From an uncultured Haliea sp. (GTDB lineage Bacteria > Pseudomonadota > Gammaproteobacteria > Pseudomonadales > Halieaceae), in contig CAMYIZ010000047.1 in the NCBI GenBank assembly GCA_947258585.1, forward strand, positions 62,001 through 126,000: a stretch of DNA of 64,000 bases, written 5' to 3'. Positions 19,651-22,157 of the stretch are shown here, piece after piece; positions within the stretch are counted from its first letter, which is position 1, and each line of letters opens with the position of its first letter. Position numbers and translations under genes: made by a program. The notes beneath the pieces were generated by a model, which saw only the letters and a program-made list of their open reading frames with translations, was not told the origin of the DNA and did no database searches.

Positions 19651-21015
19651 GTGAGCCTGCACTTCGATGAGCTTGCCTGGCAGCCCGACAGCGGCCGCCT
19701 GTTCACTGCCCTGCGCGATCTGCCAGTTCCGGCCTGGCTGGACAGCGCCCAGCCCTGGGCCGGCAATGGCCGCTATGACATTCTGGTGGCAGATCCCGGG
19801 CCAGGGACACCGCTGGCACCGCGCGCGGCGGACCCCGCGGCAAGCTGGCGCAGCTATTTTGACGACCTGGCCCGCTACCACCGGGAACGCTATGCCGGCA
19901 TCGCGCCAGCGGGCCAGCGCCTGCCCTTCTGCGGCGGCCTGCTGGGCTATCTGGGCTACGAGCCGGGCAACGCCCTGCACGGGATCGCGCACCCGCAGGC
20001 CGACCGCATTTCCACGCCTGGCGCCCATATCGGCGCCTATGACTGGTGCATCATCCAGGACCACCTGCTGCAGCGATCCGTGCTGGTTTCCCTGCCCTGG
20101 GTGAGCGCCGCGACCCGCAGGGAGCTTCGTCAGCGGCTGGCGTCGGCGCAACACGCAAGCGGAGATGGCACGTTCCAGCTGCAGGGCGGCTTTGTCTCGG
20201 GAATCAGCCGCGACCAGTACCGGGCGGCCTTTGCCCGGATCCAGGCCTATATCCAGGCCGGGGACTGTTACCAGGTGAACCTGGCGCAGCGTTTCGAGGC
20301 ACCCTGCAGCGGCGATCCGTTTGCCGCCTACCGGGTGTTGCGGGAAGTGGCTGCAGCGCCCTTTTCCGGCTACCTGCAACTGAGCGCGCAGCAGGCGCTG
20401 CTGTGCCTGTCGCCGGAACGGTTCCTGTCCCTGCAGGGCCAGCAGGTGGAAACCCGTCCCATCAAGGGCACCCGTCCTCGATTCGCGGATGCAGATCGCG
20501 ACCTGCGCAGCGCCCGGGAGTTGCGCGAGAGCCCCAAGGACCGCGCCGAGAACCTGATGATCGTGGACCTCCTGCGCAACGATCTCGGCCACAGCTGCGT
20601 GCCCGGCAGCATCCGCGTCGATCAGCTGTTTGCCCTGGAAAGCTACCCCACCGTGCACCACCTGGTCAGCACAATCCGCGGCGAACTGGCGCCGGATCGC
20701 AGCCCCTTCGACCTCCTGCGCGACAGCTTCCCCGGCGGCTCCATCACCGGCGCGCCCAAGCGCCGCGCCATGCAGATCATTGCCGAACTGGAACCCTACA
20801 GCCGCGAGGCCTACTGCGGCTCACTCCTCTATATCAGCGCGGACGGCCACATGGACAGCAACATCGCCATCCGCAGCCTGGTCGCCAACAACGGCAGCCT
20901 GCGCTGCTGGGGGGGCGGCGGGATTGTGGCGGACTCGGAGGCTGATCAGGAGTATCAGGAGACCTACGACAAGGTCGGGCGATTCCTCAGCACTTTGGAG
21001 CAGCGGTTCAGGTAG
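19651..21015 (+). CDS. pabB: Aminodeoxychorismate synthase component I
   Basis: Converts chorismate with ammonia to 4-amino-4-deoxychorismate for folate synthesis. The 454-residue protein has the chorismate-binding core: PIKGTRPR with the active-site Lys that distinguishes PabB, ENLMIVDLLRNDLGHSC, FPGGSITGAPKRRAMQII and YCGSLLYISADGHMDSNIAIRS. The start is GTG at 19651. No pabA or pabC is adjacent. It converges with thrH across a repeat-rich gap. Confidence 0.94.
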   Translation: MSLHFDELAWQPDSGRLFTALRDLPVPAWLDSAQPWAGNGRYDILVADPGPGTPLAPRAADPAASWRSYFDDLARYHRERYAGIAPAGQRLPFCGGLLGYLGYEPGNALHGIAHPQADRISTPGAHIGAYDWCIIQDHLLQRSVLVSLPWVSAATRRELRQRLASAQHASGDGTFQLQGGFVSGISRDQYRAAFARIQAYIQAGDCYQVNLAQRFEAPCSGDPFAAYRVLREVAAAPFSGYLQLSAQQALLCLSPERFLSLQGQQVETRPIKGTRPRFADADRDLRSARELRESPKDRAENLMIVDLLRNDLGHSCVPGSIRVDQLFALESYPTVHHLVSTIRGELAPDRSPFDLLRDSFPGGSITGAPKRRAMQIIAELEPYSREAYCGSLLYISADGHMDSNIAIRSLVANNGSLRCWGGGGIVADSEADQEYQETYDKVGRFLSTLEQRFR

Positions 21016-21078
21016 CTGCGGGTCGAACCCCGTAACTCCTGGCTGGTTCTAATGGAATTCGGATCCGGGACCAGGGTG

Positions 21079-21181
21079 CCGTCTGGCTGCGGGGCTTGCG
21101 GGACTCGCCGCAAGTACGTCCTTGTAGGCTCGTATCGCGCATCCATGCGCTCAACGGTCCCGCAAGCCCCGCAGCCATACG
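21079..21181 (+). repeat. Structured inverted-repeat element, copy 1 (REP/MITE-like)
   Basis: Outer arms 21085-21104 and 21157-21176 are exact 20-base reverse complements, extending outward with one mismatch to about 21080/21181. The 52-base interior holds GCGCAT-CC-ATGCGC and a weaker TAC..GTA hairpin, so the whole could fold into a long stem with two internal hairpins. The interior matches the reverse complement of copy 2 over about 60 positions, while the outer arms differ and remain self-complementary. No transposase or RAYT gene is nearby. Confidence 0.8.
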
Positions 21182-21282
21182 CCCCCCTCTGACACCGAGT
21201 ACATCGGACCTGAAAAACACCCAATCCTGAGAACTTTACCCAAGTCTATTACCGGGAAGCCCGAATTCACCCGAGCAGTGAA

Positions 21283-21392
21283 GCGCTGTGCATGCTGCGG
21301 CCTCCCGGGACCGTAGGCGGCATGGACGCCGCCTACGAGCCTACATGGATGTATTCACGGCGAGTCCCGGGAGGCCGCAGCATGGGCAGCGC
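21283..21392 (-). repeat. Structured inverted-repeat element, copy 2 (opposite orientation)
   Basis: Outer arms 21291-21311 and 21364-21384 are exact 21-base reverse complements, and GCGCTG (21283-21288) / CAGCGC (21387-21392) extends the stem past a 2-base mismatch. Inside, CGTAGGCGGC / GCCGCCTACG (10 pairs, 6-base loop) and TACAT-CC-ATGTA form two hairpins. Read on the minus strand its core aligns without gaps to copy 1. The pair lies 106 bases apart, head-to-head, between the convergent genes pabB and thrH. Confidence 0.8.
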
Positions 21393-21397
21393 GCGTT

Positions 21398-21460
21398 CCA
21401 GGCGCCAGGCGCCAGGCGCTACGCGCCGGTAACCCGGCCCGGTCAGGTCGGGTCGGGTCA
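21398..21460. repeat. Short tandem repeats next to thrH
   Basis: Three perfect copies of CCAGGCG at 21398-21418 are followed by GGTCA-GGTCG-GGTCG-GGTCA, four near-copies of a 5-base unit, at 21441-21460, which reaches the thrH stop codon. With the two inverted repeats this accounts for most of the 442-base gap; the remainder (21016-21078 and 21182-21282) shows nothing recognisable. Confidence 0.7.
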
Positions 21461-22075
21461 GACTGAGAGGGGCCTGTTGCTGGCGTCCACGAATGCCTGT
21501 TTCAACGCCGGAAAGTCGTGCACCGCCTGGAACTGCGGAAACTCGTCGATCACGTTCTGCGGCGCGTGGAACAGGAGGCCGACATCGGCCTCCCCCAGCA
21601 TCGTGGTGTCGTTGTAGGAATCGCCGGCGGCGATAATACGGTAGTGGAGGCTGTGCAGGGCCTGCACGGACGCGCGCTTGGGGTCTTTCTGGCGCAGCTT
21701 GTAGTCGACCACCCGGCCGCTGTCGTCGACCTCCAGACGGTGGCAGAACAGGGTCGGCCAACCAAGCTGGCGCATCAGGGGGGCGGAGAATTCGTAGAAA
21801 GTATCGGAGAGAATGATCACCTGGAAACGCTCGCGCAGCCAGTCGAGAAAGTCCGCCGCGCCGGGCAGTGGCTCCAGGGTGGCGATGACCTCCTGGATGT
21901 CGTCGATCCTGAGGCCGTGCTGGTCGAGGATGCGCAGGCGCTGCTTCATCAACACGTCGTAGTCGGGAATATCCCGGGTGGTGGCGCGCAGCTCGGGGAT
22001 ACCGGTGCGTTCGGCGAAGGCGATCCAGATTTCCGGTATGAGTACCCCTTCGAGGTCCAGGCAGGCCAATTCCAC
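21458..22075 (-). CDS. thrH: Bifunctional phosphoserine phosphatase / homoserine phosphotransferase ThrH
   Basis: HAD-family enzyme first described in Pseudomonas aeruginosa, moving phosphate from phosphoserine to water or homoserine. Length of 205 residues equals the Pseudomonas protein. Motif I is DLEGVL (Asp-x-Glu in place of Asp-x-Asp, typical of ThrH), with SDTFYEF, QKDPKR and GDSYNDTTML. The start is GTG at 22075, chosen because GGGAG lies 8 bases upstream and the protein then aligns end to end; the frame is open 15 bases further. Confidence 0.95.
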   Translation of the reverse strand: MELACLDLEGVLIPEIWIAFAERTGIPELRATTRDIPDYDVLMKQRLRILDQHGLRIDDIQEVIATLEPLPGAADFLDWLRERFQVIILSDTFYEFSAPLMRQLGWPTLFCHRLEVDDSGRVVDYKLRQKDPKRASVQALHSLHYRIIAAGDSYNDTTMLGEADVGLLFHAPQNVIDEFPQFQAVHDFPALKQAFVDASNRPLSV

Positions 22076-22157
22076 GTGTCGTTCTCCCAACTCGGATGCG
22101 AAAGCGGGACAATCTACCCAAGGGTGCCAGCCGCCACAAGCGGGACGAGCGAAAAAA

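Follow-up and report, generated by a model that had tools for sequence, protein, structure and literature searches.

In the gap between a pabB-like and a thrH-like gene of an uncultured Haliea sp., two structured repeats face inward, and we put the probability at about one half that this pair is one locus of a dispersed family related to YPAL and Ysr224, a mobile repeat that carries a two-site RNA module for binding CsrA/RsmA. Units of the family have a conserved core of ~58 nt set in an arm that is variable in sequence but base-paired, and neighbouring units usually face inward. Site occupancy differs between species, and the arms co-vary at orthologous sites. The kind of element is already known; we found no description of this arm-variable branch. 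The features of the locus are given below, numbered along the 64,000-nucleotide stretch that was analysed (the window); both gene names come from the first-pass annotation.

19651..21015, plus strand: pabB-like gene, upstream of copy 1 (open reading frame list and crude coding score)
21073..21188, plus strand: unit 1 (copy 1), arms 21073-21104 and 21157-21188, GGA strand minus (inverted repeat and folds)
21102..21159, plus strand: core of unit 1, GAC...GTC, 58 nt (from the sequence and the alignment of units)
21107-21129 and 21131-21156: hairpins H1 and H2 of unit 1
21119-21121 and 21142-21144: TCC triplets of unit 1, GGA when read on the minus strand
21189..21282: spacer between the inward-facing units 1 and 2
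21283..21392, minus strand: unit 2 (copy 2), arms 21283-21311 and 21364-21392, GGA strand plus (inverted repeat and folds)
21309..21366, minus strand: core of unit 2, 58 nt
21312-21337, plus strand: H2 of unit 2, AUGGAC loop, GGA at 21324-21326
21339-21361, plus strand: H1 of unit 2, CUACAUGGAUGU at 21341-21352, GGA at 21347-21349
21458..22090, minus strand: thrH-like gene, convergent with pabB (open reading frame and orthologues)

Both copies are found where the first-pass annotation had placed a pair of structured repeats, and the arms are, as it had described, unlike between the copies yet self-complementary, around cores that align (21073-21188 and 21283-21392). The arms of copy 1 are 32 nt long and 91% complementary, those of copy 2 29 nt and 93%; the two copies stand in inverted relative orientation and are 74% complementary over 78 nt. 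When stretches of 120-121 nt were folded, both strands were far more stable than shuffles, with z scores of -8.7 to -11.4 for RNA and -8.5 to -11.6 for DNA, and none of 200 shuffles was as stable as the two copies in RNA or DNA folding of either strand.

The suggestion that this is a dispersed repeat of the REP or MITE kind is borne out: the window's genome has some 25 units, spread over about 15 sites. Queries with copy 1 and copy 2 found about 16 clear places, and a profile search of the fetched loci gave 25 unit matches at about 15 sites, two of these matches lying at contig ends. Only the ~58-nt core is common to the copies of this genome, and copies with unlike arms can share a core at up to 100% identity over 62 nt. 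An exact 27-mer pattern from the core, containing one two-fold position, was found in at least 119 stretches; among the matches listed, most are labelled as gammaproteobacterial genera or as unclassified Gammaproteobacteria or Proteobacteria (Methylotuvimicrobium, Marinobacter, Stenotrophomonas, Rheinheimera, Yersinia and Sodalis are included), and one is labelled Rhodospirillales. With a covariance model, scoring at most 11 candidates per genome, units were found in 78 of the 369 gammaproteobacterial genomes sampled, and in a sample of the phylum (398 genomes, the class included) in 32, all of them from the same order or class. A plasmid or phage reservoir was rejected, there being no match at E 1e-5 and at E<=10 only short partial matches, the best to an E. 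coli phage (E 0.04, 48% of the query); E. coli as a reservoir was rejected as well, with no match at E<=1. The units are like REP, BIME and REPIN sequences in being intergenic palindromic repeats that form inverted pairs, but they are several times longer than REPs of 20-40 bp (PMC3733652) and have a conserved 58-nt core. No link to a RAYT or IS200-like transposase was found: PF01797 (Y1 transposase) has no match in the window's genome (G000), and across 58 genomes there is no association, the transposase being present in 14 of the 24 that have the element and 16 of the 34 that do not. A RAYT/REP system was rejected on these two grounds.

The closest relatives of the family are found in Yersinia. 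The Rfam model of Ysr224 (RF02770) matches 9 unit positions in 8 of the 11 loci scanned, with E 0.0038-0.83 (cut E<=1), and the window at E 1.3; because all matches are below the curated gathering score, we speak of kinship and not of formal membership. The Ysr224 consensus contains the ~58-nt core, the alignment of locus L248 has the same core, and judged by sequence the core is homologous to Ysr224, with the difference that the Rfam model lies on the opposite (TCC) strand. A search of Y. pekkanenii gave 19 units, and its copies hold the exact 27-mer. Twelve were examined, and six could be delimited, these being 165-166 bp long, flanked by direct repeats of 9-21 bp and located at terminator hairpins; three of the six have inverted arms of 7-8 bp. 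Over all genomes, flanking direct repeats of at least 10 nt occur in 8 of 209 units (2 of the 8 in Yersinia loci), as against 1 of 418 control pairings; for the pabB-thrH locus none is on record. The element YPAL, or RU-2, is described as about 168 bp long, with internal inverted repeats, and as inserting at dyad targets with duplication of 3-26 bp (PMC2229807). Judging by length and insertion habit, and working from the description of YPAL rather than its sequence, we take the Yersinia element to be YPAL, and Ysr224 and YPAL would then be one element. The copy numbers given for Y. ruckeri sit uneasily with this identification, since YPAL is reported there as rare, with 2 copies (PMC2847712), and Ysr224 is said to have multiple copies (PMC12112432). 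Ysr224 copies are reported to be expressed in Yersinia, on a strand that may be either one (PMC9029176, PMC12112432), and a listing of the 20 most prevalent sRNAs of bacteria includes it (PMC9029176). The likeness to YPAL/Ysr224 thus lies in the conserved core shared with Ysr224, the dispersed copies, the internal inverted repeats and, for YPAL, the insertion of the Yersinia copies next to dyad-symmetric sites. What sets the window's genome apart is that arm sequence varies between copies and that inward-facing pairs occupy most sites; the common body of ~167 bp (YPAL being ~167-169 bp) and the target duplications are not seen there.

The pairing of the arms extends to many genomes. Over 211 units, a unit's own arms match at 12.5 of 16 positions on average, and arms taken from different units, with equal optimisation of the register, at 6.3 of 16 (5.2 in an unoptimised control). 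An alignment of 60 units was drawn from 127 that were eligible, one per locus, with a core of 57-60 nt and at least 9 of 16 arm pairs, and because of these requirements it leans to paired units; in it, 88.7% of the cells are paired as against 62.3% after shuffling, the covariation score is 0.637 as against 0.159 after shuffling and at most 0.143 for slid structures, and all 19 outer pairs have changed on both sides somewhere. A lack of further copies together with a lack of covariation above background had been named as telling against the fold; copies were found, the covariation exceeds both controls, and with folding far beyond shuffles the preserved structure that had been proposed, a long stem with two hairpins at a three-way junction, holds up well.

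How the arms change can be followed between close species. Nine sites were at first paired between the window's genome and G004, with flanks 79-92% identical, and more were paired later. Over 20 unit pairs treated as orthologous, comprising 400 arm pairs, 250 arm pairs are unchanged and paired, 75 have changed on both sides and still pair, 51 have changed on one side, 13 have changed on both sides and are unpaired, and 11 are unchanged mismatches. Three of the unit pairs entering these counts (L243/L232, L244/L234 and L229/L259) are of doubtful orthology, and at L241+/L240- the use of one of two tandem copies inflates the one-sided changes of that pair. Leaving out L243/L232 and L244/L234 (360 arm pairs), the numbers are 240, 51, 49, 9 and 11 in the same order. 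That arms change on both sides between close species and remain paired is a new observation, as are the strand bias of the arm mismatches and the two evenly spaced GGA loops described below, and the arms offer a clean example from nature of changes made in concert on two sides while the core between them is conserved. At some sites the arms are kept and the core differs (L253-/L228-, L249-/L254+, L248+/L237-), at others the core is kept and the arms differ (L246+/L235-, L250+/L239+); at L238/L257 the core is flipped within its arms, and at L250/L239 the whole composite is inverted between the species. The spacers of six composites have 72-92% identity over aligned positions. At the pabB-thrH locus the spacer is 87% identical to the longer orthologous spacer of G004 over 93 aligned positions (193 columns), and the inner 20 nt of either arm of unit 2 are identical in G004. 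An origin of the arms generally by insertion into existing palindromes was rejected, since at L246/L235 the arms have changed and the core, the outer stem and the spacer can still be aligned; in Y. pekkanenii, terminators do look like insertion targets. With the thrH-like gene as the anchor for finding the orthologous site in relatives, unit matches were found in 7 of 30 loci downstream of thrH (G000, G002, G004, G005 and G007, and weakly G024 and G014). The congeners G001, G003 and G006 have no unit at this site, their pabB-thrH gap measuring about 15 nt (G001, G006) or less (G003). This gap offers no clean empty site with a target duplication, and the sites L256 and L258 are remnant-like or not alignable.

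Mismatches in the arms are not distributed equally between the strands. For the 173 of 211 units in which 10 or more of the 16 arm positions pair, G.U mismatches number 142 on the GGA strand and 35 on the other, G.A 101 and 23, and G.G 49 and 7. The G.U bias is present in loci from genomes of the order (35 vs 11), in the 27-mer loci (107 vs 24) and with one unit per locus (113 vs 26), and the GGA strand gives the stabler fold in 139 of the 173 units; the pairs of H2 alone have no wobble bias (8 vs 9). The mismatch types that are biased to the GGA strand are those that an RNA helix tolerates. Because of this bias we read the GGA strand as selected as a folded single strand, which holds for RNA and single-stranded DNA alike and has a one-stranded mutation process as its rival; that the folded form is RNA, we infer. 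The first-pass annotation had offered a folded RNA or a cruciform, and the folded RNA is plausible, while a cruciform in double-stranded DNA should not give so strong a strand bias.

On the GGA strand, both hairpins have predicted A-N-GGA-N loops, one of which is nearly the CsrA SELEX consensus. This consensus is given as RUACARGGAUGU, and the loop bound by RsmE as ANGGAN (PMC7652899); the common type of H1 reads CUACANGGA(U/C)GUA. Since the pattern used to fetch many of the loci includes H1, the claim for H1 is based on the pattern-free units: GGA is present in the H1 and H2 loops of all 75 units whose loci were found by BLAST and not through the 27-mer, and in both loops of all 91 units without the exact 27-mer (0.25 and 0.30 in shuffled cores), and the variation among those units is mainly at the two N positions, before and after GGA. 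Of the units from 27-mer-scan loci (n=136), 12 are without GGA in H2. Both TCC triplets are invariant in the 60-row alignment, 29 of whose rows come from loci fetched with an H1-containing pattern. When the stem was left free, GGA stood at the apex of H2 in 160 of 171 clear hairpins; the apex of H1 was ambiguous in the hairpin survey, with GGA chosen in 82 of 161. Bridging by CsrA is described for sites 10-63 nt apart, with an optimum of >18 nt (PMC7652899), and the gap from GGA to GGA, 20 nt in unit 2 and in 140 of 173 units, is inside this range and above the 18-nt optimum. In sequence the units thus have what is looked for in a CsrA/RsmA ligand RNA, namely GGA in a hairpin loop, ANGGAN, and two sites 10-63 nt apart. 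The presence of csrA is uninformative, since nearly all genomes have the gene, whether they bear the element (56 of 60 tested, out of 101 known) or not (18 of 20), and G252, an element-rich genome that is 98% complete, has no csrA match. The window's genome has four CsrA-family matches (G000 C21, C60, C7 and C15), more than any of 12 other genomes of the genus or family that were tested.

Known RNAs with similar loops were compared. In the TwoAYGGAY RNA, two hairpins carry AYGGAY loops and the external stem is poorly conserved, and this RNA is a predicted CsrA binder (PMC4333381); the likeness is in the two-hairpin layout with GGA loops, and CsrA binding is predicted on the same grounds. Membership in TwoAYGGAY (RF01731) was rejected, with no model match at E<=10 in the window region or at E<=1 in 11 further loci, and there is no evidence of common descent with the units. 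In CsrB, CsrC and RsmX-Y-Z, hairpins with GGA loops sequester CsrA (PMC7652899). The units share such hairpins with them, but CsrB/CsrC/RsmX-Y-Z are single genes with many sites, and the units have two hairpins per three-way junction and are scattered; the Rfam models of these RNAs had no match in the scanned loci, and in the window no Rfam family scored above its gathering score. In the open PMC literature, no report was found that links YPAL or Ysr224 to CsrA.

In the model that we favour, the long arm and the three-way junction would place the two hairpins next to each other, with their A-N-GGA-N loops about 20 nt apart and both within reach of a single CsrA/RsmA dimer. Scattered units would then serve as predicted CsrA-binding modules, either as decoys or by marking mRNAs, and would spread as mobile repeats; since the arm would only have to pair, its sequence would be free to drift. 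The main evidence against this model comes from four sides: the orientation of isolated units, the non-discriminating csrA, G252 without csrA, and the Ysr224 model on the TCC strand. As to orientation, of the isolated units between codirectional genes 20 have the GGA strand in the transcript of their neighbours and 34 the opposite one (p 0.08), which gives no indication that the GGA form is intended for host mRNAs. Further points against the model are the absence of wobble bias in H2, and the 12 of 136 units from 27-mer loci without GGA in H2. Stable or long stems of H2 also count against the model, as some H2 stems are long and very stable stems may disfavour CsrA binding (PMC7652899). One may go further, tentatively and with the odds against it, and suppose that YPAL-type repeats are a mobile CsrA/RsmA-decoy system, a small selfish repeat that would have carried its two-site RNA on a three-way junction across the Gammaproteobacteria, with tens of scattered decoys per genome, in which an inward-facing pair would supply one GGA-bearing and one complementary masking unit per transcript, from either side. 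We know of no agreed function for YPAL-type repeats, and the strand-biased fold together with two CsrA-grade loops at bridging distance makes their function a question for a short binding assay. If the CsrA model is true, a mobile repeat titrates or recruits a major post-transcriptional regulator, and the annotation of Ysr224 as an 'sRNA' would be explained.

The leading rival, which we consider unlikely but would take seriously, is a structure for the mobility of single-stranded DNA, in which the folded GGA-strand DNA would be the substrate of a recombinase, the loops and core its recognition sites, and the unit pairs the inverted ends of a small non-autonomous element. The arrangement of units speaks for it: among the 66 pairs of neighbours lying no more than 800 bp apart, inward-facing ones dominate with 49, as against 8 that face outward and 9 in tandem. 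So do the inverted composite at L250/L239, the flipped core at L238/L257, the differing occupancy at the pabB-thrH site and the direct repeats that flank the Y. pekkanenii copies; G.T pairs, moreover, are tolerated in DNA hairpins too. However, no Y1 transposase is found in the window's genome or associated with the element across the 58 genomes, flanking direct repeats are rare outside Yersinia, and the fit of both loops to the CsrA site, variable bases included, is left unexplained.

Quite unlikely, in our view, is a selfish or neutral palindrome, in which replication or repair would copy changes from one arm to the other and the fold would have no function. Palindrome-templated correction is a known mutational process, and such a process would suit the core alleles that differ at sites with kept arms and the arms that differ round kept cores. 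Gene context fits too: by crude gene calls, 72 of 207 units are between convergent genes, 104 between codirectional and 14 between divergent ones, 7 are inside genes and 10 far from them, and few units between divergent genes are expected if insertions are tolerated only away from promoters. But correction is symmetric between the strands and predicts no 4:1 mismatch bias tied to core orientation, nor does this explanation predict that an exact 27-mer is kept in many genera while the arms differ. The same counts bear on the placement between convergent genes noted in the first-pass annotation, which stands as a tendency (72 of 207) and falls as a rule, with 104 of 207 units between codirectional genes. 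Least probable is an RNA 3'-end element of the flanking genes, a terminator or mRNA stabiliser with the stem as its working part, for although the units are mostly intergenic and often just downstream of genes, and YPAL is described as read together with upstream genes with a possible effect on transcript stability (PMC2229807), isolated units have no clear orientation preference (34 vs 20, p 0.08) despite the strand-biased fold, and the conserved loops go unexplained.

Some smaller observations concern the surroundings and the build of the units. In a minority of Halieaceae units there is a weakly conserved boundary, where beyond the arm comes CTACCTTCRGTGCC at one end of the unit and CTACGAAGTGCC at the opposite end (seen in the flanks of L003, L231, L002, L236 and L046). 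In L073, L104, L146 and L155, from Methylotuvimicrobium, Methylomicrobium and a MAG, some units run into a second repeat, GCCATGGATGGCRTGAATGCAGATTTTGCA, which also has an ATGGAT palindrome. Units or whole pairs form tandem arrays with periods of about 350 bp at L066 and L047 (G033), and another array, with periods of about 227 bp, lies at G599:C1:94425-95651; at L040/L172 (G004) a unit is duplicated head to tail. In the cores of L228, L235, L248, L009 and L237, H1 or H2 is enlarged by a GC-rich insert that resembles a hairpin (CTGGGCGGCCCC is one of them), and these inserts look like a smaller palindrome nested in the loop region.
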